Origin: a bacterium
GTDB lineage: Bacteria; Actinomycetota; Acidimicrobiia; Acidimicrobiales; Bin134
Assembly (NCBI GenBank): GCA_028819295.1
Contig: JAPPMA010000108.1
Location: 10,575-66,631 of the forward strand
Reading direction: 5' to 3'
Length of the DNA stretch: 56,057 nucleotides
The position numbers and the translations under genes are program-made. Of this stretch, positions 14,389-37,224 are shown piece after piece. A model generated the notes under the pieces. It was given only the letters and a program-made list of their open reading frames with translations, did no database searches and was not told where the DNA came from. Position 1 is the stretch's first letter. Each line of letters begins with the position of its first letter.

Positions 14389-14408
14389 CGGGGCTCCGGG
14401 AAGGCGAA

Positions 14409-15176: not shown

Positions 15177-15222
15177 GGCGCGACCCCCTTCGCTTCTTGG
15201 CCAGTGGCCTGGTCGGACCTGT

Positions 15223-16359: not shown

Positions 16360-16404
16360 GGCGTCTCGGGTTTCATGGCGTCTCGGGTTTCATGGCGTCT
16401 CGGG
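16357..16404. repeat. 17-bp tandem repeat carrying three start codons
   Basis: CATGGCGTCTCGGGTTT occurs at 16357-16373 and 16374-16390, and all but its last three bases at 16391-16404. On the minus strand each copy supplies GAGACGCCATGAAA. The VOC stop overlaps the first ATG (ATGA), and the two upstream ATGs each open a six-codon frame (MKPETP) that closes at the next ATGA overlap. Confidence 0.9.
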
Positions 16405-18975: not shown

Positions 18976-19013
18976 CGCAGCAAGGGTGAGCACCCCGAGT
19001 TGCAGGCAAGCCG

Positions 19014-20012
19014 ATGACCACAACCGAAACTGAGCACCCGCAAGCCGGGGCGGCGGGAGAAACGCTGGCCCAACGGGCGTCGCGCCTTTTCATCTCGGTG
19101 CCTCCAGAAGCAGTCCTGCTTGCGGTGCTCTTGGCCATGGGCGGGTGGTTCTGGAACAGCTCCGAAGTGTTCATGACCACCATCAACATGCGCAACGTGC
19201 TGTTGTCGGTATCGGTCTTGGGCATCTTGGCCGCCCCGTCCACGCTTCTTTTGATTTCAGGCAATTTCGACCTGTCCATTGCCTCCAACGCGGCCATGTG
19301 CGGCGTGGCTGTGGCCATGGTTGCCGACGGGCATTCCACCGCGCTGGCCATCTTTGTCGCGGTTATCGCCGGCCTCCTTGCGGGGGCACTCAACGGCCTT
19401 CTGGTCTCCGGGCTGGGCATCGCATCCATCATCGTCACGCTGGGCACCTTCCAGGCCTATCGGGGGATCGCCCGATTGATGGCCAACGGTCAGACAATCC
19501 GGCTTCGGGGGGAGATCGACTTCATTACCGATCGGATAGTCGGAATCCCTACCCAAGTAGTGCTGTTCATCATCATCACGGCAATCACCATGTTCGTTGT
19601 CCGCTACACCCGATTCGGCCGGGCGGTGTATGCCATCGGGTCCAATTTGGTTGCCGCCCGCCTGGCCGGCATCCGGCAGCGTCCAACGGTGTTCGTGCTG
19701 TTTTTGGTGAGCGGGGTGATGGCTGCTCTGGCCGGTTTGATCTTGGCCTCGCAGCTAGACGCCGCATCTCCCAACGCCGCGACCGGTGACGAGCTGAAGG
19801 TGGTGGCCGCGGTGATTCTCGGTGGCGCCAGTCTCTCGGGGGGCCGGGGCACGATTATTGGAACACTGCTGGGAGTGCTGATTCTGGGGGTGCTGCAAAA
19901 CGGCCTCACCCTGCTGAGCGTGACGTCGTTCTGGCGGGATGTGGCGACCGGCACCGTGCTCATCGCCGCGGTCGGCCTCGACCGCGTGCGGGTCATGCTC
20001 GGCGGGCAATAG
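19014..20012 (+). CDS. Sugar ABC transporter permease (RbsC type)
   Basis: 332 residues, hydrophobic, with eight to ten predicted membrane spans. Family marks: LLISGNFDLSIASNAAMCGV near residue 80, LNGLLVSGLGIASIIVTLGTFQAYRGIARL, YAIGSNLVAARLAGI, and the cytoplasmic loop with AVILGGASLSGGRGTIIGTLLGVL. Forms the membrane channel with the ATPase at 20018. Starts 38 bp after the binding protein and ends 5 bp before the ATPase start. Confidence 0.93.
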   Translation: MTTTETEHPQAGAAGETLAQRASRLFISVPPEAVLLAVLLAMGGWFWNSSEVFMTTINMRNVLLSVSVLGILAAPSTLLLISGNFDLSIASNAAMCGVAVAMVADGHSTALAIFVAVIAGLLAGALNGLLVSGLGIASIIVTLGTFQAYRGIARLMANGQTIRLRGEIDFITDRIVGIPTQVVLFIIITAITMFVVRYTRFGRAVYAIGSNLVAARLAGIRQRPTVFVLFLVSGVMAALAGLILASQLDAASPNAATGDELKVVAAVILGGASLSGGRGTIIGTLLGVLILGVLQNGLTLLSVTSFWRDVATGTVLIAAVGLDRVRVMLGGQ

Positions 20013-20017
20013 CTGCG

Positions 20018-21562: not shown

Positions 21563-23034
21563 CGGGACCAGGCCGGGTTGCGGTTGGCCAATTTCTGCTG
21601 GAGGCCAACACCTTTACGCCACTGCGGTCAGAGCTTGACATCTTCGCGGCCGCCGGCCTTCTGGAGGGGCCTGGACTCGTTCGGGAAGGTTTGCCCGACG
21701 ATGAGTTGGCGGCGGCTTGGGATGGTCTGGTCGCCCGCGGGTTTACGCCGGTTCCCACGGTGCGAGCATGGGCCGGGGCCGGCCCTCCCCTGACCGCCGC
21801 GGCCTTTGAGCAGATCATGTCGGCCATCGTCGAGCCGATGGAGCCGACGCTGGCCGGCGTGCTGCTCTCGCTGCACGGCGCATCGGCAGCCGAGGGGGTG
21901 GACGATCCAGAGGGCGTGATCTTGGAGGAAGTCCGTCGTCGAATCGGAGGCGGTGTGCCGATGGCCGTGACGCTGGACTGCCACGCCGGCCTCACTGCTC
22001 GAATGCTCGAGAACGTCGACATCATCACCGGCTATCGCACCGTCCCCCATGTGGACCTGGCGCGAACCGGCGCCCAGGCAGCCCAACTGCTGTGTGATGC
22101 CATCGACGGTCTCATACGCCCGGTGGTAAGGCATGCGGCCATTCCCATGCTTGCTCCGGCTGACCGCCAGAACAACGACCTTGAGCCCTTCCGGTCTCTC
22201 ATGGGGGGTTGCACCGTCGCCGAGCAGCACCCCGGTGTGCTGGCCACTGCCTTTTTCCCCTCCCATCCTTGGCGTGACGTGCCCGAATTGGGGTGGAGCA
22301 CCTGTTGCACCACCGATGGAGACCCCGAGTTGGCCGCTGAGACGGCGTCAAGTCTGGCGGTGGCGGTCTGGGCGGCCCGAGAGGAGATGATCGGCGGCCG
22401 CCGGCCTCCATTGGACAAGGCATTGACTGAGGCGCTGGATGGCACCGCGCCGTTTGTGGTGGCCGATGCCGGAGACAGCCCCAGCGGAGGCTCGCCGGGG
22501 GATTCCACCGAACTGCTGCGAACAGCCGACCGGATGAAGGACCGGGCCATTTGGCTTACCGTGCGGGATCCTGAGGCTGCTGAAGCAGCCGCGGCTGCCG
22601 GTGTGGGCGCGACTGTCAATGTGAGCCTGGGCCGCGGGGGAGCAGGAGAGTACAACCAGACCACCCGGCTGGAAGCCGAGGTGCTGGCCATTCCCGAAGG
22701 GAGCTTCGCCTATACCGGGTCGCTGGCCATGGGCAAGACCGGTGATCTCGGGGTTGCTGTGTTGTTGGCTGCGGGGAAGATGCGGGTGGTTGTCCACAGC
22801 CAGACAGTCATGGTGATCGATCCCGCCCCCTATGTGGCTGCTGGATTGGACCCGGCCCAAGCGGAGGTCTTGCAAGCCAAGTCGCACGTTAGCTATCGAG
22901 AGGGCTTCGCCCCGATCACCACCAGAAGCGTGGTTGCCAACACGGGCGGGCCCACTGCGGCCGATTTGGGGTTGCTGGAGTATCGGCGAAGGCCTGTTCC
23001 CATGTTCCCGTTCGAATCCGACGTCCGCTTCTGA
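21559..23034 (+). CDS. M81 family protein (MlrC-like)
   Basis: 491 residues. Family blocks: VAVGQFLLEANTFTP at the N-terminus, GVLLSLHGASAAEGVDDPEG near residue 98, MAVTLDCHAGLTARML with likely metal-binding Asp/His, GYRTVPHVDLARTGAQAA, and VVADAGDSPSGGSPGDSTELLR near residue 303. The founding member, MlrC, acts in microcystin breakdown as a zinc metallopeptidase, but most relatives sit in sugar or amide transporter operons and have unknown substrates. Here it is the last gene of an Rbs-type operon, suggesting it opens the imported compound. Confidence 0.85.
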   Translation: MTGPGRVAVGQFLLEANTFTPLRSELDIFAAAGLLEGPGLVREGLPDDELAAAWDGLVARGFTPVPTVRAWAGAGPPLTAAAFEQIMSAIVEPMEPTLAGVLLSLHGASAAEGVDDPEGVILEEVRRRIGGGVPMAVTLDCHAGLTARMLENVDIITGYRTVPHVDLARTGAQAAQLLCDAIDGLIRPVVRHAAIPMLAPADRQNNDLEPFRSLMGGCTVAEQHPGVLATAFFPSHPWRDVPELGWSTCCTTDGDPELAAETASSLAVAVWAAREEMIGGRRPPLDKALTEALDGTAPFVVADAGDSPSGGSPGDSTELLRTADRMKDRAIWLTVRDPEAAEAAAAAGVGATVNVSLGRGGAGEYNQTTRLEAEVLAIPEGSFAYTGSLAMGKTGDLGVAVLLAAGKMRVVVHSQTVMVIDPAPYVAAGLDPAQAEVLQAKSHVSYREGFAPITTRSVVANTGGPTAADLGLLEYRRRPVPMFPFESDVRF

Positions 23035-23867: not shown

Positions 23868-24755
23868 ATGGCCGAACGGCTTGACTTCGTCGACACCCAT
23901 GTCCACTTTTGGGAGCGACCGCATCCGAAGCTCCAATGGGCCTGGCTGGCCCCCGATGCTGTGCATCCGCTCTTGGGCGAGATCAAGCCGCTCAAAGAAC
24001 TGACCAAGTACGTGGTCGATGATCTGCGGGCCGACACCGACGGCCTGAACGTCACCAAGATCGTTCACGTCCAAGCCGCCATTGGCTCCGCCGATCCAGT
24101 GGACGAGACGGAGTGGTTGCAGGAGATGGCTGACGCCACCGGCTGGCCGACCGGCATCACCGGGGATGCCCGGCTTCAGCACGCCGATGTGGAGGGGGTG
24201 CTCGAACGCCACTGCGAGTTCCCCATCATGCGGGGCCTGCGCGACTTCGCCGAAGGCGACTATCTCGCAGACCCTGCCTTCCATCGGGGCTATGCCCTGT
24301 TGGAAAAGCACAACCTGGTCTACGACCTAGACGTGACCTGGGAGGACATGGGCAAGGCCGCTGATCTGGCCCGCAAGTTTCCGAACATCATCTTGATCTG
24401 CGACCACGCCGGCTTCCCCCACGAGCGCAATGACGAGTTTCTGGCCAATTGGCGGAAAGGCATCGCGGCACTGGCCGAAGCCGACAATGCAGTGGTGAAG
24501 ATCTCCGGTTTGGGCATGGGCGACCAGATGGCCGGCGGCAACTGGACCGTCGACAGTATTCGCCCCTACGTACACGGCTGCATCGAGGCATTCGGAGTGG
24601 AGCGGTCGTTTTTCGGCAGCAACTGGCCGGTAGATCGGATGTACTCCACGTACCAGGTCATGCTCGATGCCTATGTGGAGTTGGTGGCCGACTTCTCTCG
24701 AGACGAGCAGGTGGCGTTGTTCTCGGGCAACGCGGAGCGCATCTACCGGATCTAA
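23868..24755 (+). CDS. Amidohydrolase family 2 protein (fuconolactonase-like, COG3618 type)
   Basis: 295 residues, TIM-barrel metal hydrolase. DTHVHFW at residues 9-15 gives the two metal-binding His (11, 13); further blocks are VTKIVHVQAAIG, GLRDFAEG, NIILICDHAGFP and the C-terminal FGSNWPVDRMYSTY with the conserved Asp. L-fuconolactonase and 2-pyrone-4,6-dicarboxylate lactonase belong to this group, so lactone hydrolysis in a non-phosphorylative sugar pathway is the best guess. AAAGGACCGAGC precedes the ATG. Single gene downstream of operator C. Confidence 0.88.
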   Translation: MAERLDFVDTHVHFWERPHPKLQWAWLAPDAVHPLLGEIKPLKELTKYVVDDLRADTDGLNVTKIVHVQAAIGSADPVDETEWLQEMADATGWPTGITGDARLQHADVEGVLERHCEFPIMRGLRDFAEGDYLADPAFHRGYALLEKHNLVYDLDVTWEDMGKAADLARKFPNIILICDHAGFPHERNDEFLANWRKGIAALAEADNAVVKISGLGMGDQMAGGNWTVDSIRPYVHGCIEAFGVERSFFGSNWPVDRMYSTYQVMLDAYVELVADFSRDEQVALFSGNAERIYRI

Positions 24756-24798: not shown

Positions 24799-25917
24799 CT
24801 ACTTGTCGTCGCGGTGGTGCTCGACGTAGTCCCAATCCAATTCCAACCCCCATCCCGGTCCTGACGGAACGGTGTACCTGCCGTTGGCAATTGGGGGGCG
24901 GTTGGCGATCAATTCCCAAAACAGGGGATCGCGGGTGGGGTGGAACACCTCCACATAAGTTCCGTGGGGCACCGAAGCCAGCATGTGGGCGGCGATCTGG
25001 GCTTCCTCGTGATGGCCCATCTCTACCCCGTAGACCTGGGCCATTCCCGCGATCCGGCGCCATTCAGTAGGCCCTCCCCCCCATGAGGCGTCGTAGTTGC
25101 ACACGTCTATGGCCCCGGAGCTGATCAGCCCTCCAACGCCTTGGCGGTTGAACTCGCTTTGACCGGCGGCTACCTGCACTCCGGCCATGAACCTCACGTC
25201 GCGCATCCCTCTCACGTCGTTGTACCAGCGCACCGGCTCTTCGAACCATCGGATGTGTTCGACTCCAACCAGGCGCACAAACTCCACTGCCTCAGTCACT
25301 GAATACCCCTGATTGGCGTCCACCGTGAACACGAAGTCGTCCCCGGCGGCGGCTTGGGCCACCTTGAAGCGATGAGCATCTTCGGCAGGGGAGAGGCCGC
25401 CGATCTTGAGCTTGCAACCGCATAGATCCATATCGCGGTAGTCCTGCATCTCAGCGGCCAACTGGGCGTCGGTCTTGCCGTAGTATCCGCCGATGGCCAT
25501 GATTGGCAGCTCGCGTCGATAACCGCCCCAGAGCTCGCTGACGGACAAGCCGGCTACTTTGCCGACAAGGTCCCACAAGGCGGAGTCAACTGCGGCGATG
25601 GCCATCACCACCAGCTTGCGGTTGCGGAGGATGTCGTAGGTGGGCGGCAGCATTGCCTCCCAGCACTGCTCCACCATGAGGGGATCGCGGCCCATGACGA
25701 GCGGCTGGAGCTCGTCGAGAATGATTCGGGCGATCTCGTGTTGGGTGTCGGGTTCGTCGCCGTTGTATGCCTCGCCCACCACGCCGTCATCGGTGAAGAC
25801 GCGGGTGATCAGCGTGGCCCTTTCCGACATAGAGTATTTCGACCCTCGAAATGTCTCCGCCAACGGGACCACGATGGGGATGACCTCGATGTGCTTGATC
25901 TTCACGGCCTCGGCCAT
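24799..25917 (-). CDS. Mandelate racemase/muconate lactonizing enzyme family (sugar-acid dehydratase-like)
   Basis: 372 residues from ATG 25917. KxK motif at 169/171 (CKLKIGG), metal ligands Asp200 (TVDANQG), Glu226 (WFEEPV) and Glu255 (GQSEF), and a His-rich MGHHEEAQIAAH that may provide the second base. It is only distantly similar to the other enolase-superfamily protein at 15223, so the two likely act on different intermediates or epimers. Divergent from the lacI-type gene, with operator D between. The frame continues 30 codons upstream through the operator, so that longer start is rejected. Confidence 0.9.
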   Translation of the reverse strand: MAEAVKIKHIEVIPIVVPLAETFRGSKYSMSERATLITRVFTDDGVVGEAYNGDEPDTQHEIARIILDELQPLVMGRDPLMVEQCWEAMLPPTYDILRNRKLVVMAIAAVDSALWDLVGKVAGLSVSELWGGYRRELPIMAIGGYYGKTDAQLAAEMQDYRDMDLCGCKLKIGGLSPAEDAHRFKVAQAAAGDDFVFTVDANQGYSVTEAVEFVRLVGVEHIRWFEEPVRWYNDVRGMRDVRFMAGVQVAAGQSEFNRQGVGGLISSGAIDVCNYDASWGGGPTEWRRIAGMAQVYGVEMGHHEEAQIAAHMLASVPHGTYVEVFHPTRDPLFWELIANRPPIANGRYTVPSGPGWGLELDWDYVEHHRDDK

Positions 25918-26018: not shown

Positions 26019-27056
26019 ATGAAACACGAGTACGTCACGATGAAGGGCGCCACCATGAAGGAGGTGGCGGCCCATGCCGGGGTGGCCTTGTCCTCAGTGT
26101 CGCGAGTGCTCAACAACCACCCGGATGTCAGCGAGGCCATGCAGCGGCAAGTACACGATGCCATCGCCGCTGTCGGCTACGAGCCCAACCTCTTGGCCTC
26201 CAGTTTGCGGCGGGGATCCACCGAGACAGTGGGCTTCATCGCCAGCGACATCTCCAACCCGCTCTTCGCCGAGATCGTCCTCGGGGCAGAGCGCAGGCTG
26301 GACGAATCCGGGTATTCCATGGTTCTCACCAACTCTGAGGGCAATCCCGAGCGCGATGAGGCCATGATCCGCCTCTTGAGGCGCCGGCGCATCGACGGGC
26401 TCATCTTGTCGGTGGCCGACGAGGACAGGCCGGGGACGATAGCCGAATTGTCCAAGCTGGCTGAGCCGGTGGTGCTCATCGACCGCGAGGTCAGCGGCTT
26501 CCACACCGCTTCGGCGGTATTCACTGATCATTCCGGCGGTATGCGGGCAGCCAGCGAGCACCTGCTCAGCCTGGGACATCGTCGAATTGCATTGATCTCA
26601 GGAGCTCGCAGCTTGCGCCCGGTTCGTGAGCGGCTCAAGGGCTTCGAAGCGGCCTTTGCAACTCGGGGCCTTCAGGTTCCCGAAGACCTCCTTCGCTTCG
26701 GCAGCTTCTCAGCGCCGTTCGGCCAGCAGGCCACCGCCGAACTGCTGGCCCTGGATGATCCGCCCACCGCAATCATCTCTGGCGGCAATCTCTTGCTCAC
26801 CGGGGTGCTGCGAGCCCTGCAAGCGGGCCAACGGTCGGTTGGCGGGGATATCTCGCTCATATCCTGCGACGACGTCCCACTGGCTGAGCTCCACACACCT
26901 CCCATTTCCGTCGTCGACCGAGACGCGGTGCAGATGGGCGATGCCGCCGCTAGTTTGCTGCTCGATCTTCTGGCTGGCGGGGATCGTCCCCGCGTGGCCG
27001 AAGTGCCCACCCATCTGCTTCTACGGGGTTCTACGCAACCGCTGGCCGTCGATTGA
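26019..27056 (+). CDS. LacI-family transcriptional regulator of the sugar island
   Basis: 345 residues. An N-terminal helix-turn-helix and hinge helix are clear (ATMKEVAAHAGVALSSVSRV, then YEPNLLASSLRRG), followed by a periplasmic-binding-like effector domain: VGFIASDISNPLFAEIVLGAERRL, RRRIDGLILSVAD, PVVLIDREV, LGHRRIALISG and ISLISCDDVPLAEL. AAGGAAG precedes ATG 26019; ATGs at 26040 and 26055 are possible alternatives. It is the only regulator in the island, and LacI proteins bind palindromes with a central CG such as the eight sites listed here, so it is the obvious regulator. The ligand is presumably a pathway sugar or acid. Confidence 0.92.
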   Translation: MKHEYVTMKGATMKEVAAHAGVALSSVSRVLNNHPDVSEAMQRQVHDAIAAVGYEPNLLASSLRRGSTETVGFIASDISNPLFAEIVLGAERRLDESGYSMVLTNSEGNPERDEAMIRLLRRRRIDGLILSVADEDRPGTIAELSKLAEPVVLIDREVSGFHTASAVFTDHSGGMRAASEHLLSLGHRRIALISGARSLRPVRERLKGFEAAFATRGLQVPEDLLRFGSFSAPFGQQATAELLALDDPPTAIISGGNLLLTGVLRALQAGQRSVGGDISLISCDDVPLAELHTPPISVVDRDAVQMGDAAASLLLDLLAGGDRPRVAEVPTHLLLRGSTQPLAVD

Positions 27057-27070
27057 GGGACTGCTATTGC

Positions 27071-27310
27071 TCAGTCGGAGGCGATGATGGCGATAGGAGC
27101 GCCAATGCCCACCTCATCGTCCACGGCGACAAGGTGCTCGGCGAGCGTTCCCGACACCGGCGAGGGAACGTCGGAGTCCACCTTGTCGGTCTCGACCCGC
27201 AGCAAATCGTCCCCAGCGGCCACGGTGTCTCCAACCTCAGCGAGCCACTCCAGAACCACCACTTCTTCGGTGGTGTCGCCGAGCTTGGGAAGCTTGATGG
27301 TGAAACGCAT
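27071..27310 (-). CDS. Stand-alone lipoyl-domain protein
   Basis: 79 residues from ATG 27310: a single biotinyl/lipoyl domain (FTIKLPKLGDTTEEVVVLEW, then GDDLLRVETDKVDSDVPSP with the lipoylated Lys43, then VDDEVGIGAPIAII). It ends there: the peripheral-subunit-binding and acyltransferase domains of a normal E2 are absent. It follows E1 beta and E1 alpha in the same operon, so it presumably carries the acyl or reducing group for them. A TTG at 27325 overlapping the E1 alpha stop is an alternative start. Confidence 0.88.
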   Translation of the reverse strand: MRFTIKLPKLGDTTEEVVVLEWLAEVGDTVAAGDDLLRVETDKVDSDVPSPVSGTLAEHLVAVDDEVGIGAPIAIIASD

Positions 27311-27321
27311 GGTGGGCGGGG

Positions 27322-28314
27322 TCAAGGAGCGAGCACGTTGTCGAACATGGCGGCCAACGGGGGTGGCGGGCTGGACAGGACGGTCTCTACCGCGGCGGCG
27401 ATGCTCTCGTCGACCAGAGTCTTCACCGCATCCAATTCGTCACCGCTCAACAGCCCCTCGTCTACCAGTCGGCGGCCGTAGTTGACGATCGGATCCTTCT
27501 CGTACCACCGCTCGAACTCGCCTTCCGGACGATAAGGCGCGGTGTCGGCCCGGGAGTGGCCCGCATACCGGTATGTCTTCATCTCGACCAGGGTGGGGCC
27601 GCCGCCGGCTCGGGCTCGCTCCAGTGCGGCGGCGACCGCGGCGGCCGCATTGTCGGGGTCCTGCCCGTCGACGACCTCGCTGGGCAGGTCATAGGCCTGG
27701 GCTCGCACGGCGATGTCGTCCACCGGCGTGGTCAGATCGATGCGGCTGTACTCACCGTATTGGTTGTTCTCGCAGACGAAAACCACCGGCAAGTTCCATA
27801 CAGAGGCCAAGTTGAGCGCCTCGTGAAAGGCGCCGATATTGGTGGCGCCGTCGCCGAACACTGCTAGTGCGGCATCGTCGGTTCCCCGCACCTGGGCGGT
27901 GAGAGCGGCCCCGGCGGCGACCGGGATCCCCGCGCCGACGATGGCGAAGGTGGGCAGCAACCCGACATCGGGTTCGCTGAGGTGCATGGAGCCGCCAATG
28001 CCACCGATCGACCCGGCTTCTCGGCCCAGTATCTCGCCCAGCAGATCGACTGGGGTCAATCCCAGGGCTAAGGCCACACCGTGGCCCCGATAGGTGCAGG
28101 TCACGGTGTCGGACACCCGGGCGGCCGCGGCCACGCCAACGGCGACGGCCTCCTGGCCGAGGCACAGATGGGTGGTGCCGTGGACCAGTCCTTCGTCGAA
28201 GAGGTCTTGGACCTTGTTCTCCAAGGCCCTTATCTCAACCATCCGCTCGTAACGGGCGCGTCGGTCGTCTTGTAGCGCTTGGCGCCTTTCCAATCGATTG
28301 GCGGGCATGCTCAT
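27322..28314 (-). CDS. 2-oxoacid (pyruvate/acetoin-type) dehydrogenase E1 component, alpha subunit
   Basis: 330 residues, ThDP-dependent. RGHGVALALG near 76-85, the GSMH loop with His111, and the ThDP/Mg motif GDGATNIGAFHEALNLAS starting at 154 and ending CENNQYGEYS. A C-terminal HSRADTAPYRP follows. Overall size and motifs resemble AcoA and branched/pyruvate E1 alpha. The ATG overlaps the E1 beta stop (ATGA, 28311-28314). The frame extends further upstream inside E1 beta, which I reject. Confidence 0.92.
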   Translation of the reverse strand: MSMPANRLERRQALQDDRRARYERMVEIRALENKVQDLFDEGLVHGTTHLCLGQEAVAVGVAAAARVSDTVTCTYRGHGVALALGLTPVDLLGEILGREAGSIGGIGGSMHLSEPDVGLLPTFAIVGAGIPVAAGAALTAQVRGTDDAALAVFGDGATNIGAFHEALNLASVWNLPVVFVCENNQYGEYSRIDLTTPVDDIAVRAQAYDLPSEVVDGQDPDNAAAAVAAALERARAGGGPTLVEMKTYRYAGHSRADTAPYRPEGEFERWYEKDPIVNYGRRLVDEGLLSGDELDAVKTLVDESIAAAVETVLSSPPPPLAAMFDNVLAP

Positions 28315-29327
28315 GGGCTTCCTTTCTCTGCCTCCCACCAGGGGGGCGGAACCCGACCGGTTTGCAACAGCCCGGCGACTTGCTCGTCGATGTAGTCCGA
28401 AGACGGCATGTACCGTTCTTCGAGTTCCTTCCCGAAGGGGACCGGCACGTCGGGTGCGGTGATCCGCAGGGGAGGCCCCTCGAGCTCGCCGAACAGGTCG
28501 GCGGCCACCGCAGCAACGATGTCGGCCCCCCATCCCCCGAACAGCGGATTCTCCTCTACCGTCACCAATCGACCGGTGCGGGCCACTGACTCATAGACCA
28601 TGTCGCGGTCCCAGGGTTGGAGGCTCTGGAGATCAATGACTTCGGCAGACCACGAGGCCGCGGCTTCAGCCTGCGCGGCGGTGCCCACGGTGGACCCCAG
28701 CGCCACAATTGTGGCGTCATCGCCGCCGACCACCTGGCGAGCTGTTCCCAGGGGGATTACACCCTCGGGTCCGGTGGTGACGTTCTCGCGTTGGGCGTAC
28801 AGCCGCCGGGGCTCGAGCACCACGGTGGGGCTGTCGTCTCGGATGGCGGCCCGCATGAGTCCGTAGGCTGTGGCTGGGCCCGAGGCCACCGCCAGCTTGA
28901 GGCCGGGCGTGCCCATCACCCAGCCTTCCAGCGTCTGCGAATGCTGGGTGCCGAATCCCAATCCGGCGCCTACCGAGGCCCGGACGGTGAGGGGGACGGT
29001 GACCCGCCCGCCCGACAGGTAGTGGAACTTGGCTCCTTCGGTAGACAGCTGATCCAGTGCGACGCCTAGGAACTCCACGAACATGATCTCGACCACCGGC
29101 CTCAGGCCTGTGGCGGCAGCGCCTACTGCTGCGCCCAGAAAACCCATCTCGGAGATGGGGGTGTCTCGGACCCGAAGCGGTCCGAACTCGTCCAGCAAGC
29201 CGGCTGAAGTCTTGAACGGCCCCTCGGCCACCGCCACGTCTTCACCCAAGACGATCACATCGGGATCAGCCCGCATTTCGTCGGCGATGGCCGCCGAAAT
29301 GGCCTGGTTCATTCTCATCCGGGGCAC
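28311..29327 (-). CDS. 2-oxoacid (pyruvate/acetoin-type) dehydrogenase E1 component, beta subunit
   Basis: 338 residues of the transketolase-like pyrimidine-binding fold plus C-terminal domain. VIVLGEDVAVAEG, DTPISEMGFLGAAVGAA (Glu60 activates ThDP), the active-site His129 in FGTQHSQTLE, and VIDLQSLQPWDRD. With the alpha subunit it should decarboxylate a 2-oxo acid (or cleave an acetoin-like diketone/ketol) onto the lipoyl carrier. No E2 acyltransferase or E3 is encoded nearby. It lies 76 bp downstream of the Gfo/Idh dehydrogenase on the same strand. Confidence 0.92.
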   Translation of the reverse strand: MPRMRMNQAISAAIADEMRADPDVIVLGEDVAVAEGPFKTSAGLLDEFGPLRVRDTPISEMGFLGAAVGAAATGLRPVVEIMFVEFLGVALDQLSTEGAKFHYLSGGRVTVPLTVRASVGAGLGFGTQHSQTLEGWVMGTPGLKLAVASGPATAYGLMRAAIRDDSPTVVLEPRRLYAQRENVTTGPEGVIPLGTARQVVGGDDATIVALGSTVGTAAQAEAAASWSAEVIDLQSLQPWDRDMVYESVARTGRLVTVEENPLFGGWGADIVAAVAADLFGELEGPPLRITAPDVPVPFGKELEERYMPSSDYIDEQVAGLLQTGRVPPPWWEAEKGSP

Positions 29328-29403
29328 GGAATCCTCCTTGGTTCACAGTTCGCCGAAGAACCGGTGGCACGAGTAGCTGTCTACGCCGATTCGCACGCCG
29401 GCC

Positions 29404-30501
29404 TCAGCCGCCGATTCGAATCACAGCACCCGTCTGGGCGCTGCGAACCGCGGCGTCCACCACCTCCACAGTGCGGGCACCGAGATCGGCAGTTGAGCGG
29501 TTGGGGGCGCCTCGGCCCAGGGTGAGGTCGATCAGTGTGTCTGGCGGTCCCACACACTGGTAGAGGCCGGCATGGCGAGGCAGGTCGACTTTGAGGTCGA
29601 GCCCGTCTTCTCGGTAGAGCCACAGGAAGTCTCGCTCCAAATCGGCAATCAGCTGCCCTTCCGATCCGAAGATTCGGACTTGGAGCTGATGTCGGGACCA
29701 CGGCTCGTCGGGGTCGTCGATGGCGTTGGCCGTTGCCGGACAGCTTGCTCCGCTTATCGAACCGGTTGCGCCCGACTGATAGCGCATCGAGATGGCGTCA
29801 TGCATGTCGACTCGGGCGCTCAGGTTGTTCATAAATGCGAACACCTCTTGGGCCCGGTCGCCGGTCAGCCACATGGCCAGCCCCATGGCGTGCGAGATCT
29901 GAGCGGGGGCATATCCGCCTCCCGACACTCCCGGATCGGTCCAAGTCTCGGCTTCGGGAGCGAAGCCCTCGGCCGACCCCTCGTAGCCGCCACCGCCGGT
30001 CGAGGTGAGCAGCTCTCGGGTCCCCGATGCCATCGCCACCAAAACGTGCTCGACTTGGCCCACGCCGCCCTCGGACTCCATCAAGCGCTTGGCCTCGATC
30101 CCAAGCGGTCCATAGTTCCAGCCAAAAGACAACAGCAGGTGGCGGCCCAAACGCTCGGCGGTGTGGTGCAGATCCCAGGCATCGTCGGGGTCGACGGTGA
30201 AGGGCTTCTCGCACAGCACGTTGGCGCCCGACTCCATGGCCGCCTTGGCGTGCTCATGGTGCAGACCTGATGGGCTGGCCACGATCACGGCGTCGAGCCC
30301 TTGGTCCAAGGCGTCTCGGTAGTCCTCGCTTACATGGGCGAAGCCGAACCGGTCGCCAATGGCCTCCAGCGCCTCACGTCCCTTGCGCACGGCAGAGACC
30401 AGTTCGACATCGTCTCTCTCTGCCAAGACAGGAATGTGGTTGCTGACGGCCCACGACCCTGCACCAATGACCCCCACACGGACCTTTCTGCTGGTCGCCA
30501 C
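29404..30501 (-). CDS. Gfo/Idh/MocA family oxidoreductase
   Basis: 365 residues from GTG 30501, with GGGAGG seven bases upstream. Rossmann motif VGVIGAGSWAVSNHIPVL at 9-26, ASPSGLHHEHAKAAM, the conserved Glu98-Lys99-Pro100 (VLCEKPF), and a C-terminal alpha/beta domain including YAPAQISHAMGLAMWL. These NAD(P)-dependent enzymes oxidise or epimerise sugars, inositols and glycosides. It heads the Gfo-E1 beta-E1 alpha-lipoyl operon, downstream of operator E. The much longer open frame reaching 31449 is antisense to the next gene and is rejected. Confidence 0.9.
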   Translation of the reverse strand: MATSRKVRVGVIGAGSWAVSNHIPVLAERDDVELVSAVRKGREALEAIGDRFGFAHVSEDYRDALDQGLDAVIVASPSGLHHEHAKAAMESGANVLCEKPFTVDPDDAWDLHHTAERLGRHLLLSFGWNYGPLGIEAKRLMESEGGVGQVEHVLVAMASGTRELLTSTGGGGYEGSAEGFAPEAETWTDPGVSGGGYAPAQISHAMGLAMWLTGDRAQEVFAFMNNLSARVDMHDAISMRYQSGATGSISGASCPATANAIDDPDEPWSRHQLQVRIFGSEGQLIADLERDFLWLYREDGLDLKVDLPRHAGLYQCVGPPDTLIDLTLGRGAPNRSTADLGARTVEVVDAAVRSAQTGAVIRIGG

Positions 30502-30564: not shown

Positions 30565-31311
30565 GTGGTCTCCAATGGGATGGCACAGGGGAAAGGGGTG
30601 GCCGGGAGGACGGCCGCGGTCACCGGCGCAGCCCGGGGCATTGGCCGGGCGGTGGCCGAATGCCTGGTGGACGGCGGTGCTCGAGTGGCCCTGCTCGACA
30701 TCCAGGCGCCGACCGACGAAGCGGCCCTGAATCAGTCTGACGACACGATGTTCGTGTTGTGCGACGTGACCGATGAGCAGTCTGTCGACCACGCGGTCCG
30801 GCAAATCGAAGCGGTGTGGGACGGGGTGGACATCCTGGTCAACAATGCGGGGATCTTCGCCATTGAACCGCTGGAGCAGACCACGCTGGAGGGCTGGAAC
30901 CGCATGCTCGCGGTCAACCTCACAGGGAGCTTCCTGTGCAGTCGACGAGTCTTGCCCGGGATGCGCGACCAGGGGTGGGGCCGGATCATCTCCATGGGGT
31001 CGAGCGCGGGCAAGACAGGCGGGTCGAAGAACACCGCGGCTTACGGCGCGGCCAAGGCGGGTGTCATGGCACTGGCAAAAGCCATCGCCACCGAATATGC
31101 CCCGTGGGGGATCACGTCGAACGCGATGGCGCCGGCGCTCATAGAAACCGACATGGTGGCGGGAATAGCCGACCTGGCTGACGGCATTCCAGTGGGGCGC
31201 CTCGGCCAACCGGCCGATGTCGCCCATGCCGTGCGGTTCCTGGCCAGTGAAGAGGCGGGCTACATCACCGGCGAGGTGATGGATGTCAACGGGGGGTTCC
31301 TGATCGACTGA
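30565..31311 (+). CDS. Short-chain dehydrogenase/reductase (SDR)
   Basis: 248 residues. TGAARGIGRAVAECL at about 20-34, ILVNNAGIFAIEPL, the catalytic Ser in SMGSSAG, and AAYGAAKAG with Tyr/Lys; ends GEVMDVNGGFLID. GTG 30565 is preferred because AAGGAG lies eight bases upstream and it falls after operator E; ATG 30580 is the alternative, and an upstream extension to 30301 would run through the operator. Resembles 3-oxoacyl-ACP reductase/sugar dehydrogenase SDRs. Confidence 0.88.
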   Translation: MVSNGMAQGKGVAGRTAAVTGAARGIGRAVAECLVDGGARVALLDIQAPTDEAALNQSDDTMFVLCDVTDEQSVDHAVRQIEAVWDGVDILVNNAGIFAIEPLEQTTLEGWNRMLAVNLTGSFLCSRRVLPGMRDQGWGRIISMGSSAGKTGGSKNTAAYGAAKAGVMALAKAIATEYAPWGITSNAMAPALIETDMVAGIADLADGIPVGRLGQPADVAHAVRFLASEEAGYITGEVMDVNGGFLID

Positions 31312-31383: not shown

Positions 31384-31698
31384 ATGGAACGCGCCTGCTT
31401 CACCTTCGAGATCTACCCCGACGCCGCCGACGAGTACAAGAAGCGCCACGACGAGATCTGGCCTGAGCTCGTTGAGGCCATTCAGGCGGCCGGGCTCAAG
31501 AACTACTCCCTATTCCGCCGGGGGACTCAGGTCATCGCCTATGTGGAATGCCACCCTGACGTGGAGACGGCGTTCGGCAAGATCGGCGAAACCGAGGTCA
31601 ATGGACGCTGGGCGACGTGGTTCGAGGATGTGATCGTCTCCCTGGCCGACGACGACGGCAACCTGTACTGGGCCGACGAGGTGTGGCACTTGGATTGA
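31384..31698 (+). CDS. L-rhamnose mutarotase-type protein (RhaM/DUF718)
   Basis: 104 residues, a small dimeric alpha/beta-barrel. CFTFEIYPDAADEYKKRHDEIWPEL carries the conserved His of the family, followed by KNYSLFRRGTQVIAYVE and a Trp-rich end (RWATWFEDVI, EVWHLD). RhaM interconverts anomers of L-rhamnose; relatives act on other deoxy-sugars. Presence of this gene is one of the better hints that the island handles a free deoxy-sugar. Single gene with its own operator (F). Confidence 0.92.
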   Translation: MERACFTFEIYPDAADEYKKRHDEIWPELVEAIQAAGLKNYSLFRRGTQVIAYVECHPDVETAFGKIGETEVNGRWATWFEDVIVSLADDDGNLYWADEVWHLD

Positions 31699-31725: not shown

Positions 31726-33144
31726 TCAGTGCGTGACGGCGATCAGCTCCACGCAGGTGTCCACCAGGATCTGCTCGCTCTCAGGGGCGATCTGCTCGAC
31801 GAGGCCATACGAGTGGTGGGCGTAGTCGCATTCGTAGCCCCCGTCGGGATATTCCACGGCAGTGGGCAAATAGGTGAGCACGCCGTTCGTGTAGCCCGCG
31901 AACAGCGTGGTGGCCGCAACAGAGCGCCGCTTGACCTCGATGGCCAATTCTGAGAATGCCTCGCCGGGCATGGTGGCAATGACCGTGTCTCCAATCCGCA
32001 TGGCTTGCAGGAACGCCGGAACTTGTGACGCAGTGTCGCCGCGGCGTGTCTGCTCGATGGCGTCTTCAGCCCAGTTGAGGTGGTACTCGACGGGGTTGAG
32101 TGCCACCTGATCAGCGCCGGACGACCGAATCCGATCTACTTCTTTCTGGTAGCCGTCCCGTTCGGCCTCAAGTTGGGCCAGAGTGGGGAGAGGTTTGAGG
32201 GGAAGCTGCACGGTGCGACCGCAGGCGGCCAGCGTTTGCACCGGTTGGGGATCGGCGGCCACCTGACGGTGCAGCACGATAGGGGTGACCGAGCCGTAGT
32301 CGATGCGCTGGATGCGGAGCTCGGTGGGAGTGAGCTGCTCGAGGACATGCAGCACTTCCACCCCTAGCTTGCGGCCGAATGCCACTTCGGGACCGGTGTG
32401 GTCGAAGAATCCTTCGAGCGGGAGCACGTTTCCGCAGGCCCCTTGCAAGAACAGGCACGTCGCGCCGGTCACTTGTTCGACCAGGTCGCGCATTGGGCCG
32501 GGATAATCGGGGTTCACCCCGGCATCCTCCGGGCCGACCACCACCGGGTGGCAGGCGTAGCTGACCAGCACGGCGAGCGTCGAGCCGTCCAAACGGTCGA
32601 TGCGCAGCACTCCCACGTCACGGTCCACTGCCTTGTCGGGGTTCCAGCCCAAGATCACCCGCCCCTCGGCGTTCTTCTCCCGCCGGTTCACTGCCAGATC
32701 CAAGGTTCCGACCCCACCGGCGACTCGGACCGGTTCAAGCTGGGCCGCGGCTTGGGTGGCGACTTCTTTGATCTGCCGAGGAAAGGAGTCTATGAAGGCC
32801 ATCTCATTGGCGGATCGCGCTCGCTGCTGCCCGCCGATTTTCACACCCTGGGAATCGGTCATCGGGCCGGCATGGGTGTGGCTCACCCCGATCATGACGT
32901 GATCGGGAGAAGTGTCAATAGCGGCACCGATCTCCGCCCGCAAGCGGTCGGCATGATGGGGGGTCAGGAAGGGCACATCGGCGGCCAATATGGCCACCCG
33001 GGTGGGGCCCAACTCCACAACCAACGCGGTGGCCGTGAGCCGGCCTCGAATTTCCGAGGCCGGCTCGACTCGTCGGGAATAACCCACCACATCAATTGGA
33101 ACCGATGGGGTGATGTCGACACGAGAGACCCCGGCACTAAGCAT
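31726..33144 (-). CDS. Neutral/alkaline ceramidase-like N-terminal domain protein
   Basis: 472 residues. The start (GVSRVDITPSVPIDVVGYSRR) and blocks ILAADVPFLTPHHADRLR, IGVSHTHAGP (88-94, metal-binding His), VSYACHPVVVG, LFLQGACGNVLP and ATMPGEAFSEL match the N-terminal domain of neutral/non-lysosomal ceramidase, as found in many bacterial proteins of unknown substrate that sit in sugar clusters. No signal peptide is visible, so it should be cytoplasmic, unlike secreted ceramidases. An amidase or ester hydrolase for a sugar derivative is plausible. Divergent from 33201 across operator G. Confidence 0.85.
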   Translation of the reverse strand: MLSAGVSRVDITPSVPIDVVGYSRRVEPASEIRGRLTATALVVELGPTRVAILAADVPFLTPHHADRLRAEIGAAIDTSPDHVMIGVSHTHAGPMTDSQGVKIGGQQRARSANEMAFIDSFPRQIKEVATQAAAQLEPVRVAGGVGTLDLAVNRREKNAEGRVILGWNPDKAVDRDVGVLRIDRLDGSTLAVLVSYACHPVVVGPEDAGVNPDYPGPMRDLVEQVTGATCLFLQGACGNVLPLEGFFDHTGPEVAFGRKLGVEVLHVLEQLTPTELRIQRIDYGSVTPIVLHRQVAADPQPVQTLAACGRTVQLPLKPLPTLAQLEAERDGYQKEVDRIRSSGADQVALNPVEYHLNWAEDAIEQTRRGDTASQVPAFLQAMRIGDTVIATMPGEAFSELAIEVKRRSVAATTLFAGYTNGVLTYLPTAVEYPDGGYECDYAHHSYGLVEQIAPESEQILVDTCVELIAVTH

Positions 33145-33157
33145 GGGGGCATTGTGC

Positions 33158-33171
33158 CAGAATCGTTTCCA
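33158..33171. promoter_or_regulatory. LacI-type operator, site G
   Basis: CAGAATCGTTTCCA: three mismatches to the consensus, right half perfect. Located between the ceramidase-like gene (33144) and the isomerase-like gene (33201). Confidence 0.5.
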
Positions 33172-33200
33172 GAGTGTTGGAAAGAGAGAGGCGGAAAGGG

Positions 33201-34601
33201 ATGACTCCCCTAAAGATCGGCCAATTGTCTGTGTATTTCGGACTGTTCGATGAAGCTATGCCGGCCGGGTTCCGCCAAACGCGCCGAGACTATGCCGCCG
33301 CGGTTGGCGACATGCTGGCGGCGTACGGTGAAGTCGTTGCGCCCGGTCTGGTGGACAACCTGGACAGCGCCGCTGAAGCGAACGAAGCGTTCGTCAAAGA
33401 AGGGGTGGACGTTGTGGTCTTCGCTCCCACCATGGCGGCGCCCCCCGGATGGGCGGCGCGGGCATTGGATGGCTTGGATGTGCCGGTTGTCGTGCTAGGG
33501 GCCCAGGAGAGCGGGACTGTGCCCGACGACTACGACACCGAGACGGCCACCGCTCGCAGTCTGCCGGTGGGGCTGGTCATGTTCACCAATGTGCTTGTCC
33601 GGCGACGGCGGTCGTTCACCGCTGTGGTAGGCGAGTTGGGGTCGCCGACGCTGACAGTCTCGCTGGGCCGGGCCATGAGGGCAGCAGCGGCCGTAGCCAC
33701 CATTCGCGGCCGGCCCATTGCCCAAGTTGGCGAGGCCATCGGGGGCTACGACGATGTCATGGCCTCTGAGCAGGAGCTGGCCTTGCTGGGAGTGCGAACG
33801 GTGTCGATCACGGCCGAGAAGCTGACTGAGGCGTTCCAGTCGGTCTCGCCAACCCGGGTGAAGGCGGTTGCCGACGAGGTCCGGGCGACCGCAGACGCCG
33901 ACGCGGTTCCCCCCGAGGTCTTGGACAGGTCGTGCCAGCTGAGCGCGGCGCTGGAAGACCTGTGTGATGCCTATCGGGTTTGCGGTGGGACGGTGAACTG
34001 CCACGGGCCGGTGATGCGCTGGAACCCGGGAGTGGGAATCACCGCGTGTTTGGGCGTCACCCGGCTCAGCGAGCGGGGCATCCCGTTCTCCTGCACCGGC
34101 GATGTCCCCACGGCCATTGCGCTCTCGCTATGCAAGTCGGTGGCCGGGGCCGCGTTGTACTGCGAGCTGTATCAGATGGACTTCGCCGGAGACTGGATCC
34201 TGGTGGCCAACGGCGGGGAGGGAGATCCAACCGGCCGCGCCCCGGGGTCGGCGATACGCTTGCTGCCCGAGGACCACTATTCGGGAGAGCATGGCCCCGG
34301 TACCGCCTCGGCTTTCGAGCTGGCTGAAGGCCCGTCCACCTTGGTGAGCCTGACTCCGGCCGCAGCCGCTGTGGGCGGCTGGCTCTTAGTCGTGGCCGAG
34401 GGCGAGATCATCGGCGCACGCCATCGCCGAATGGAGGGGCCAAACGGCATGTTCCGGTTTTCTGCCGCGCCAGTGGCTGAGGCTTATCAGGCCTGGTGCC
34501 AGGCAGGCGCTACCCACCATGCGGTGCTGGTGCCCGGGGCTCGTCAAGATGATCTGGCGTGCGTTGCCGATCTGTTGGGAATTGAGCTGGCCGCGGTCTA
34601 G
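33201..34601 (+). CDS. L-fucose/L-arabinose isomerase-like protein
   Basis: 466 residues from ATG 33201 with GGAAAGGG just upstream. The arrangement matches the FucI/AraA-like fold: an N-terminal Rossmann-like domain (VDVVVFAPTMAAPPG, VPVVVLGAQESG), a middle domain (GGYDDVMASEQELALLGVRTV), and C-terminal blocks GGTVNCHGPVMRW, ITACLGVTRL, GIPFSCTGDVPTAIAL and VVAEGEIIG. Such proteins isomerise aldoses and ketoses with a divalent metal, but the usual metal-site Glu/Asp/His set is not obvious to me, so activity is unproven. It faces a paralogue at 34625-36070 tail to tail with 23 bp between stops. Confidence 0.8.
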   Translation: MTPLKIGQLSVYFGLFDEAMPAGFRQTRRDYAAAVGDMLAAYGEVVAPGLVDNLDSAAEANEAFVKEGVDVVVFAPTMAAPPGWAARALDGLDVPVVVLGAQESGTVPDDYDTETATARSLPVGLVMFTNVLVRRRRSFTAVVGELGSPTLTVSLGRAMRAAAAVATIRGRPIAQVGEAIGGYDDVMASEQELALLGVRTVSITAEKLTEAFQSVSPTRVKAVADEVRATADADAVPPEVLDRSCQLSAALEDLCDAYRVCGGTVNCHGPVMRWNPGVGITACLGVTRLSERGIPFSCTGDVPTAIALSLCKSVAGAALYCELYQMDFAGDWILVANGGEGDPTGRAPGSAIRLLPEDHYSGEHGPGTASAFELAEGPSTLVSLTPAAAAVGGWLLVVAEGEIIGARHRRMEGPNGMFRFSAAPVAEAYQAWCQAGATHHAVLVPGARQDDLACVADLLGIELAAV

Positions 34602-34624
34602 AAAGTGAAGGCGGACTGGCCGGA

Positions 34625-36070
34625 TTACACCACGGTGCAGTCAACGTTTGCGAAATTGGCTACTGCGGCCACTGCTGATGCCAAGTGCCCAGGGGAGATG
34701 GCACTGTGGTGGTTGACCCCGGAAGCCGTCCACCGGGCCCATGCTTCGGCCACTGACCCGTTGGAGAAGCGGAACACGCCTCCGACGGTGGGGTTGGCGG
34801 GCAGTTCTCGGCCGGTGATCTCCCCTTCGGCCACGACGAAGCCGAACCCTGACGGATGTTCCGGTTGGGGGGCGAACCCGACCAGCGATGCCGGCCCAGT
34901 CGGCAATTCGAAATGGGCCCGATACCCGGTGCGCTGATCGGCGTCATACCAGGGGTTGGGTCCCAGCTTCGGCACTCGGCCATCCGAGCACCAGTCCAGG
35001 TCATGCTCCCCTGAGTTGGCCACCGCCACCTCACCGGTCTTGAAGTCGATGGCCTCGATTTCGTGGTAGAGGGCCGCACCGGAAAGCTGCTTGGCCACCA
35101 GCATGGCCACTGCGGTGAGCACATCCCCGGTACACGTCCAAGGCACTCCCCGAGTGGTTTCGCAGCCCAGCCCGAAACAAGGCGTCAGTCCGGGGTCGGG
35201 TCCGAAGCGGATCTCCGGAACATGGCAGTTCATTGCTCCGGCGGCGAAATCGCCCTCTCGGTCCAGGGCCTCGAGTGCGGCCGCCAGACGAAGGGACCTG
35301 TCGAGGTCGTCCTCCGGTCCCGGTTCTATCTCAAATGAGCCGACCACCCGTTGGCGCCAAGAGGCGGCCTGGGCGTCGTCGACCGCGGCGTAGTGCCGCA
35401 GCACATCGTGTGGGGTCAGGGCTACGACTTCTATCCCCAGAGACCGCCCCAGTTCTTCGTCGTCGGCGTCGACGCATCCGTAGCCATCCAGGGGGCGGCC
35501 GACCCGAGCCAATCGAGCTCGGCGCAAGCGAGTCGCCACGGCTGCGGCTCGAAGCCGGTCGGCCACCTCGGCTGCGCCCCGCTCGCTCCCTTCGGGGGAG
35601 ACCACCAGCTCGAAAGCTCGCCGGGTCCGGTGGAGCATGTTGGTGATCATCGGAGTGCCCACGGTCGCCCCCAGAGACGTGACGTGACCAGCATTGAAGT
35701 CGGCAGGGATGACCGCCGACCTCTGCACCGCCCAGATGACGACCGGCCGAGGGAGATGATCGAGGAGGCCTAATGCATGAGAGGGAGGCACTGCCATCGA
35801 CTGAACTACCAATACAGCTTCGGGGCCGCGGGCCGCGGCCTCTTCAGCGCCGCGGACGCCCTGTTCGGGACCGTCGACCAGTCCCTGCCAAACGACATCG
35901 ATGTTCCGTTCTCCAAGGAGGTCACCCACAGACCGCAGCAGATTCTCGCGGTCACTTCGAAAATCTGGCCCGACGCTCGATTCCCAAAAATCCCAATAGG
36001 GAACGACGACTGCGGCTCTCGGCGCGGCCTTCTGGTGGTAGCCAGGCTCGCCATCGATCGGTATAGTCAT
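34625..36070 (-). CDS. L-fucose/L-arabinose isomerase-like protein (paralogue of 33201-34601)
   Basis: 481 residues from ATG 36070. It shares the order of blocks with its convergent neighbour: VLVVQSMAVPPS, GYGCVDADDEELGRSLGIEVV, GAMNCHVPEIRF, LTPCFGLGCETTRGVPWTCTGDVLTAVA, and FVVAEGEITGRELPAN near the end. The differences are large, so the duplication is old or the two were recruited separately; they might form a hetero-oligomer or handle two sugars. Operator H lies 3 bp upstream of the ATG. An alternative start 6 codons earlier (36088) would overlap the operator. Confidence 0.8.
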   Translation of the reverse strand: MTIPIDGEPGYHQKAAPRAAVVVPYWDFWESSVGPDFRSDRENLLRSVGDLLGERNIDVVWQGLVDGPEQGVRGAEEAAARGPEAVLVVQSMAVPPSHALGLLDHLPRPVVIWAVQRSAVIPADFNAGHVTSLGATVGTPMITNMLHRTRRAFELVVSPEGSERGAAEVADRLRAAAVATRLRRARLARVGRPLDGYGCVDADDEELGRSLGIEVVALTPHDVLRHYAAVDDAQAASWRQRVVGSFEIEPGPEDDLDRSLRLAAALEALDREGDFAAGAMNCHVPEIRFGPDPGLTPCFGLGCETTRGVPWTCTGDVLTAVAMLVAKQLSGAALYHEIEAIDFKTGEVAVANSGEHDLDWCSDGRVPKLGPNPWYDADQRTGYRAHFELPTGPASLVGFAPQPEHPSGFGFVVAEGEITGRELPANPTVGGVFRFSNGSVAEAWARWTASGVNHHSAISPGHLASAVAAVANFANVDCTVV

Positions 36071-36073
36071 TGC

Positions 36074-36087
36074 TGGAAACGTTACCA
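36074..36087. promoter_or_regulatory. LacI-type operator, site H
   Basis: TGGAAACGTTACCA: one mismatch to the consensus. It occupies most of the 35-bp gap between the divergent starts at 36070 and 36106, so binding should block both. Confidence 0.75.
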
Positions 36088-36105
36088 AGGAGAAGGAAAC
36101 GGCAG

Positions 36106-37224
36106 ATGTCAGAGAACAGGATCGAATTCTCCGAAGTGCTGGGGCGACGGGTCCGCCTGGGGCCCTGGGAAGATCAGAAGATCTCGACTTATCGAAAGAT
36201 AATAGAGAGCATTGACCAGGGGGATTGGGAGACAGCGGCCGATCTTGCCGACTACTTCACCGACGAGGCCAACGTCTGCTTCACCCTCTACCGCCAATGG
36301 ATCAATGATTTGCGCGGGTTTCTGCGGGATAGCGGTGCATCCGCTGAAGAGGTGGCATCCATTGATGCCGATGTTCAATCCAAGCTCACCTGCCCCGACG
36401 GACGGGAGTGGAATGCCCACCGCCATTGGGACCAGTACCGAGATGAACAGCGCCGACTCTTGGCCACCATCTACCGGGAAGATGCCGAGCAGGCCCGAGA
36501 GCACCTGGCGACCATGAAGGAGACCTGGCGCCAGACCCACGACCGTGATGTGGATCACACATATGGGCTCATGTCAGCCATTCAGGCCCGCCACGGAGCC
36601 CAGGGCATCGCCGATATGTACCAACGGGTGCTCGTGCCGCTCTTCTCGTGGCGGTACAACAAGTTCGATATCGACCAGCATCCGTGGGACGAGGCGTTGG
36701 AGACGCTGATGCTGGTGGCCTGCGAAGCCATGAGAGGCCATTTGGTCGGACCGGAGCGCACCGGTGACTTTGAACTGATCGAGGCCGATGACCGCTTCAT
36801 CCTGCGGTTCGATCCCTGCGGGTCGGGTCAGCGGATTGTCCGCGGCGACTGGATCGAAGACACCCCGGCCCGGATAGAGCCCCCCTACAACTGGGAGGTG
36901 GCAAAAGAGGAGGCATCTTGGAACCACTTCACAAAGGGGGTCTGCCTCTATTGCGCCCACTGCATTGTGCTGATGGAAGAACTGCCCATCGACCGCTTCG
37001 GCTATCCGGTGCGAGTGATCGACCCGCCGGTGTACCCCGACACCGACCCTGACCCTGAGGTGCGTCAGAAGTGTCAATGGCAGATGTTCAAGGATCCCAC
37101 CACCGTTCCTGAGGAGTATTACCTTCGGGTGGGCCGGAAAAAGCCCAAAGTATTCGGGTCGAGCAACTTTGATGCCCCCGAACTGCCCGACGCCGGAGCA
37201 CTCGGGCTCCCTGGCACAGGCTGA
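36106..37224 (+). CDS. Uncharacterised protein with CxYCAHC motif (paralogue of 13273-14388)
   Basis: 372 residues from ATG 36106, with GGAGAAGG upstream. Family not recognised. It repeats the block order of the 13273-14388 protein: IDQGDWETAADLADYFTDEA in the N-terminal helical part, a second helical region ending EAMRGHLVGPERTGD, then FDPCGSGQR, GVCLYCAHC, GYPVRVIDPP, and a C-terminal CQWQMFKDPTTVPEEYYLRVG. The Cys/His cluster suggests metal or cofactor binding, and the lack of a signal peptide suggests a cytoplasmic enzyme. It begins an operon with the zinc alcohol dehydrogenase 5 bp downstream. Both copies fall under LacI-type sites (H and A), tying the family to this pathway. Confidence 0.85.
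   Translation: MSENRIEFSEVLGRRVRLGPWEDQKISTYRKIIESIDQGDWETAADLADYFTDEANVCFTLYRQWINDLRGFLRDSGASAEEVASIDADVQSKLTCPDGREWNAHRHWDQYRDEQRRLLATIYREDAEQAREHLATMKETWRQTHDRDVDHTYGLMSAIQARHGAQGIADMYQRVLVPLFSWRYNKFDIDQHPWDEALETLMLVACEAMRGHLVGPERTGDFELIEADDRFILRFDPCGSGQRIVRGDWIEDTPARIEPPYNWEVAKEEASWNHFTKGVCLYCAHCIVLMEELPIDRFGYPVRVIDPPVYPDTDPDPEVRQKCQWQMFKDPTTVPEEYYLRVGRKKPKVFGSSNFDAPELPDAGALGLPGTG

Follow-up and report, generated by a model that had tools for sequence, protein, structure and literature searches.

What does a protein on the L-arabinose/L-fucose isomerase (AraA/FucI) fold do once part of the catalytic set of that fold has been exchanged? The question is raised by two neighbouring genes, here called P1 and P2, in a 56,057-nucleotide stretch of an Acidimicrobiales genome (GenBank assembly GCA_028819295.1, contig JAPPMA010000108.1, positions 10,575 to 66,631, forward strand; this whole stretch is called the window, and positions are counted from its first letter). 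A first-pass annotation, made from the letters alone, had described two diverged FucI/AraA-like proteins without the standard metal ligands of FucI, possibly forming a hetero-oligomer. Judged from their sequences, the pair is real, is conserved across the Actinomycetota genomes and metagenome-assembled genomes (MAGs) where it is found, and does not consist of ordinary isomerases. Very probably, P1 and P2 are rewired, non-canonical enzymes of the sugar-oxidation cluster that surrounds them.

33201 to 34601, plus strand: P1, ATG start, 466 residues, FucI/AraA-fold protein
34625 to 36070, minus strand: P2, ATG start, 481 residues, paralogue of P1

Results

The two genes converge, with 23 bp separating their stops; the open reading frame list also carries longer starts (GTG at 33174 for P1, TTG at 36088 for P2). 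The two proteins are 35% identical across an alignment of 437 residues (E 2e-71), and the blocks NCH, CTGDV-x-TA and VAEGEI occur in both. The lengths, the tail-to-tail arrangement and the common blocks are thus as first described. Compared with a same-genus genome, the ratio of non-synonymous to synonymous substitution rates is ~0.08 for P1 and ~0.13 for P2, indicating purifying selection; these values, well below 1, rule out decaying genes. An artefact of a single MAG is ruled out by the same pair in the same order in GenBank MAGs L034–L039, and a recent tandem duplication by the P1–P2 identity of 26–37% across the set and by two supported clades.

The AlphaFold2 model of P2 (predicted local distance difference test (pLDDT) 90.7, predicted template modelling score 0.91) shows the L-arabinose/L-fucose isomerase fold. 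Its best Foldseek match is AraA 4r1p (E 4.6e-34), and in VIA it superposes on L-arabinose isomerase from end to end with a Z of 38.8 over 456 residues at 2.5 Å, followed by L-fucose isomerase (Z ~31). This structural comparison agrees with the isomerase fold proposed in the first-pass annotation, and from its 35% identity to P2, P1 probably shares the AraA fold. At the sequence level, P1 and P2 are only weakly AraA-like. Searching the PDB with a profile built from 23 P1/P2 proteins brings up nine L-arabinose isomerase sequences (E 2e-18 to 5.7e-7), and Pfam PF11762 (Arabinose_Iso_C) recognises P1 at 33.1 bits (cut-off 25), with no match to P2 up to E 0.01. The NCBIfam models score far below their cut-offs: AraA (NF002795) gives 31.6 and 21.2 bits for the pair (cut-off 622), and SftI (NF048012) gives 44 bits for P2 and 30.6 bits for P1 (cut-off 700).

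Phylogeny places P1 and P2 as ancient paralogues on one branch of the AraA/FucI fold. In a tree of 80 rows (27 near-identical, partial or duplicate names omitted, FucI restored under another name) they form one clade, with a Shimodaira–Hasegawa-like approximate likelihood ratio test support of 100, made up of a P1 subclade (99) and a P2 subclade (100). The group sister to this clade is AraA (80).

We take the metal and catalytic set of AraA to be Glu306, Glu333, His350 and His450, and the metal ligands of FucI to be Glu337, Asp361 and His528. These columns were read in an alignment that joins the P1/P2 clade to E. coli AraA and FucI and to relatives of the same class and phylum as the window. 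Collapsing rows at least 97% identical took the clade from 36 to 34 rows and the others, the two E. coli proteins included, from 68 to 59. The alignment omits L022, L033 and L029, and in later versions also L030; a disrupted P2-like protein (L021) was trimmed to 430 residues and excluded from the counts.

At the column of AraA Glu306 and FucI Glu337, the clade carries Thr (25 rows), Ala (6) or Val (3), against Glu in all 59 other rows. The acceptance of Thr, Ala and Val alike suggests that a small side chain is all this position needs. At AraA His350, the clade has Asn in 31 rows and Ser in three, against His in 58 of the 59 others, where the Asn of E. coli FucI is the exception. The other two positions are invariant in the 34 clade rows, with Glu at AraA Glu333/FucI Asp361 and His at AraA His450/FucI His528. 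A passage of PMC11172353 describes Glu306 and Glu333 of AraA as its proton-exchanging pair. The clade also has residues of its own. His268 of P1, at the FucI Gln300 column, is His in 34/34 clade rows and 0/59 others, and the same counts hold for Arg28 and for Arg273; Arg25 is present in every clade row and in 3/59 others. On the first-pass suggestion that the substrate may not be a free aldose, the evidence is divided: two or three clade-specific Arg are a hint that it may be anionic, whereas a mutarotase-family gene directly before P2 in two other lineages speaks for a free sugar. At the AraA columns Phe83, His128 and Phe279, the clade has Ala, Val and Cys (Cys in 33/34), and Asp301 of P1 is kept at its active-site column. 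The corresponding residues in the two proteins are as follows.

P1: T299 (former base or ligand), E322, H439-H440, H268, R25/R28/R273, and N337 in place of AraA His350
P2: T314, E337, H454-H455, H283, R38/R41/R288, and N352

All four AraA-type ligands are intact in three further relatives, which come from Pantoea, Deinococcus and Rhizobium. The claim of missing metal ligands stands in part: two of the four AraA ligands (or one of the three FucI ligands) are gone, and two remain. With the losses conserved in 34/34 clade proteins, a non-canonical active site is upheld; full ligand conservation with ordinary isomerases as nearest relatives is not what we find. The loss of exactly the first catalytic Glu, together with fixed new His and Arg residues, suggests a changed chemistry on a well-studied fold that is used in rare-sugar production. 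Automated annotation of this branch as, for example, 'L-fucose/L-arabinose isomerase family protein' is misleading.

Both genes have a local LacI-type operator within the sugar-oxidation cluster.

33158 to 33171, unstranded: LacI-type operator (G), upstream of P1, between P1 and a ceramidase-like gene
36074 to 36087, unstranded: LacI-type operator (H), in the gap that separates P2 from the divergent gene at 36106
26019 to 27056, plus strand: LacI-family regulator, within the cluster

For the pattern TGGAAACGTTTCCA with at most three mismatches, 1.19 sites would be expected in the window; the observed number is 10, which none of 100 shuffles reached. With at most two mismatches in the 3.56 Mb genome, all six places fall inside the cluster (a reversed control pattern gave three). 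The operator was found again at the P1 promoter in 5/6 related P1 loci scanned and at the P2 promoter in 6/6 related P2 loci. The separate operators assigned to P1 and P2 at the outset therefore hold, as an enriched palindrome that recurs in relatives, and a common operator at both promoters together with a LacI gene in the cluster is what a LacI-controlled sugar regulon should contain.

P1 and P2 are convergent in all 12 inspected loci that hold both. In seven they are directly adjacent (6 to 43 bases between stops), and in five they are separated by other genes spanning 2 to 3.9 kb. The convergence and the common LacI control would suit the earlier view of P1 and P2 as subunits of one obligate hetero-oligomer; the intervening genes in 5/12 loci speak against it, as do P1 without P2 in all six genomes of genus g113 and a single P2-type protein, with no P1 at E <= 1e-20, in each of genomes G541 and G603. 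Because genomes with just P1 or just P2 exist, an obligate hetero-oligomer is unlikely. We abandon this arrangement as a rule for the pair and give it only a very small probability.

Each gene has companions of its own. In the P2-less group, P1 lies beside an enolase-superfamily dehydratase in 4/4 inspected loci (L040, L058–L060). P2 has the gene here called DUFb as its divergent neighbour in 16/18 inspected loci; of the exceptions, L106 has a mutarotase gene between the two and L104 has DUFb on another contig. This linkage spans Solirubrobacteraceae MAGs (L046, L049), a Nanopelagicales MAG (L045) and an uncultured actinobacterium MAG (L048). At L053–L055, L064 and L065, transporters of the citrate/sulfate type (CitMHS, TrkA_C) lie between or beside the P1/P2 genes, which hints at an organic acid as the substrate. 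An apparently disrupted copy lies at 5749–11826 of L056 (genome G249), with DUFb over two overlapping frames, the P2-like gene in pieces and a mutarotase present. Genome G476 has three P1/P2-profile matches, on contigs C14, C39 and C49 (466, 394 and 225 bits). Searches beyond Actinomycetota covered a plasmid collection and one genome-contig scan, whose 17 loci are, going by their record titles, actinobacterial or unassigned MAGs.

DUFb has a paralogue, DUFa, at the far end of the cluster.

36106 to 37224, plus strand: DUFb, uncharacterised Cys-rich protein, 372 residues, divergent neighbour of P2
13273 to 14388, minus strand: DUFa, paralogue of DUFb at 39% identity

The two have the invariant motifs DPCGSG, CxYCxHC and a later Cys-x-Trp (CxW). 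Neither has a Pfam match at gathering level, and for DUFb the PDB offers no convincing sequence match. The AlphaFold2 model of DUFb (pLDDT 83) has no Foldseek match at E <= 0.001, and its VIA Z is at most 8.5. Distant relatives, with the C-terminal half of DUFa/b in common, adjoin acyl-CoA dehydrogenases in other actinobacteria.

The operator-linked cluster spans ~13.3–38.3 kb of the window and further contains the following genes.

13273 to 17618, minus strand: DUFa, SDR, enolase-superfamily dehydratase 1, glyoxalase-like protein, SDR
17848 to 23034, plus strand: sugar ABC transporter (binding protein, permease, ATPase) and M81 metallopeptidase
23868 to 24755, plus strand: amidohydrolase, L-fucono-1,5-lactonase-like (107.8 bits, cut-off 400)
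24799 to 25917, minus strand: enolase-superfamily sugar-acid dehydratase 2
27071 to 27310, minus strand: stand-alone lipoyl domain, 79 residues (PF00364, 67.1 bits), part of a 2-oxoacid dehydrogenase (set at 27071 to 29312)
27322 to 28308, minus strand: E1 alpha of the same 2-oxoacid dehydrogenase
28311 to 29312, minus strand: E1 beta of the same 2-oxoacid dehydrogenase
29404 to 30480, minus strand: Gfo/Idh-type oxidoreductase
30565 to 31311, plus strand: SDR dehydrogenase
31384 to 31698, plus strand: L-rhamnose-mutarotase family protein (PF05336, 77.5 bits; TIGR02625, 71.3 bits, below the cut-off of 99.6)
31726 to 33144, minus strand: neutral ceramidase N-terminal-domain protein, divergent from P1
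37230 to 38252, plus strand: zinc-dependent alcohol dehydrogenase, downstream of DUFb

With its mutarotase, lactonase and dehydratase homologues, the cluster is one for non-phosphorylating sugar oxidation under LacI control. FGGY kinase (one match in the genome) and class II aldolase (six) have no match on the window's contig (C108); this oxidative gene set without either enzyme on the contig therefore suggests a route that needs no isomerase. The non-canonical role first proposed fits such a cluster, which has no need for the classical isomerase–kinase–aldolase route. FAA-hydrolase (six matching places in the genome) and DHDPS, the DapA-type aldolase (three matches), likewise have none on that contig.

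Within the window, no E2 core was called beside the lipoyl domain, E1 alpha and E1 beta; at L049, E1 beta is followed by a protein that carries an E3-binding domain. In the same-genus locus L034 and other relatives, a xylose-isomerase-like TIM-barrel gene (~900 bp) stands between E1 beta and Gfo/Idh. The corresponding gap in the window (29312–29404) is ~90 bp and lacks it.

Discussion

Our best explanation is that P1 and P2 belong to a branch of the L-arabinose/L-fucose isomerase fold whose catalysis has been rewired, and that they are separate enzymes with a proposed role in a deoxyhexose pathway. Taken whole, we give it an even chance. In P1 numbering, the gained His268, the kept Glu322 and His440 would form a rebuilt two-His-one-Glu site, probably metal-binding, and the Arg residues may hold an anionic substrate, an aldonate or a 2-oxo-acid. 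A sugar or sugar-acid intermediate is most likely what the enzymes act on, and an anionic substrate is a proposition on which we are evenly divided. The least certain part has P1 and P2 acting downstream of the dehydratase in a non-phosphorylated deoxyhexose pathway. There they could, speculatively, act on a 2-oxo-3-deoxy sugar acid by tautomerising or cleaving it; the usual cleaving enzymes are missing from the cluster. A tautomerase or lyase step is a tentative assignment that we rate as unlikely. A slightly less likely version of it is a new enzyme type on the FucI/AraA fold, whose two-His-one-Glu site would tautomerise or cleave this acid and replace an FAA-type hydrolase or DapA-type aldolase, P2 perhaps working with DUFb. 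Two dehydratases, two DUF paralogues and several SDRs would allow P1 and P2 to serve two parallel branches as separate enzymes.

Several observations weigh against this proposal. The sister relation to AraA is supported at 80 in a tree with long branches. The His–Glu–His site is read from alignment columns alone, and all residue changes map to one stem, which leaves no independent replicate of the loss with the gain. Cleavage could be carried out by enzymes whose genes lie elsewhere in the genome. An L-rhamnose-mutarotase-family gene precedes P2 on the same strand in two other lineages (L104 and L106), at a distance of 7 and 19 bases, an arrangement that speaks for a free sugar as the substrate.

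The last observation favours non-canonical aldose–ketose isomerases or epimerases of a free deoxyhexose, in which His268 would act as the base in place of the lost Glu, and Glu322 and His440 would hold a metal or act by themselves. A mutarotase-family gene also lies inside the regulon, the isomerase fold is complete, the second acid and the His are kept, and metal-independent engineered AraA variants with altered metal sites are mentioned in a passage of PMC12842569. Weighing the other way are the loss in 34/34 proteins of Glu306, one half of the proton-exchanging pair in the cited passage of PMC11172353, an oxidative route that can do without an isomerase, and a contig without an FGGY kinase or class II aldolase match. 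We regard a free-sugar isomerase as unlikely, while giving it real weight. The lost catalytic residue, the presence of two paralogues in one regulon and the tie of P2 to DUFb could also be read as signs that P1 and P2 are catalytically dead, sensing sugars by binding them or acting as regulatory subunits for some other enzyme of the cluster. The invariant new His268, Arg28 and Arg273 and the kept Glu322, Asp301 and His439-His440 at active-site columns suit a working active site better, and P1 and P2 each occur alone, so that we consider dead homologues improbable. A reading of the pair as normal L-arabinose or L-fucose isomerases with only a superficial divergence is almost certainly wrong: P1 does pass the Pfam Arabinose_Iso_C cut-off, but ligands are lost and the NCBIfam AraA scores of 31.6 and 21.2 bits compare with a cut-off of 622. 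On the preferred reading, a rewired branch of separate enzymes, P1, P2 and DUFa/b would be orphan steps in the sugar catabolism of Acidimicrobiia metagenome genomes and related actinobacteria.

Relation to known systems

Among the papers listed on SftI, the AraA/FucI superfamily, FucI ligands, lost catalytic residues and COG2407, none is recognisable as a description of the P1/P2 branch. L-arabinose isomerase AraA (E. coli, Geobacillus) is the nearest group in the tree and resembles the P2 model over the whole length of the fold (VIA Z 36–39) at ~14–18% identity, and the Glu333 and His450 positions are kept in P1 and P2. Unlike AraA, the pair has Thr, Ala or Val at Glu306, Asn or Ser at His350, and Ala, Val and Cys at the Phe83, His128 and Phe279 columns, and it carries the new His268, Arg28 and Arg273. 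E. coli FucI (1fui) has the same fold (Z 30.7) and, like P1 and P2, an Asn at the AraA His350 column; its His528 position is kept in the pair and its Asp361 position is still an acid. In contrast to FucI, P1 and P2 have lost Glu337, have His for Gln300 and are 110–125 residues shorter.

The sulfoquinovose isomerase SftI/SqvD is of the same fold class and gives a weak profile match. A passage of PMC9594981 reports conserved Mn2+ ligands in SqvD, and E, D, H and H are all present at the best SftI-like locus (L073), whereas P1 and P2 are without the full set. Orthology of the pair to SftI is ruled out by profile scores under the cut-off and by the ligand columns.

A non-phosphorylated L-fucose pathway is reported in PMC12263773 for the sponge isolate Hal317, also of the Acidimicrobiia. 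The cluster described here encodes homologues for its 1-dehydrogenase, lactonase and dehydratase steps. The present locus differs in having no FAA-hydrolase or DHDPS match on the window's contig, and in placing P1, P2, DUFa/b and the E1 alpha/E1 beta/lipoyl set among its operator-linked genes.

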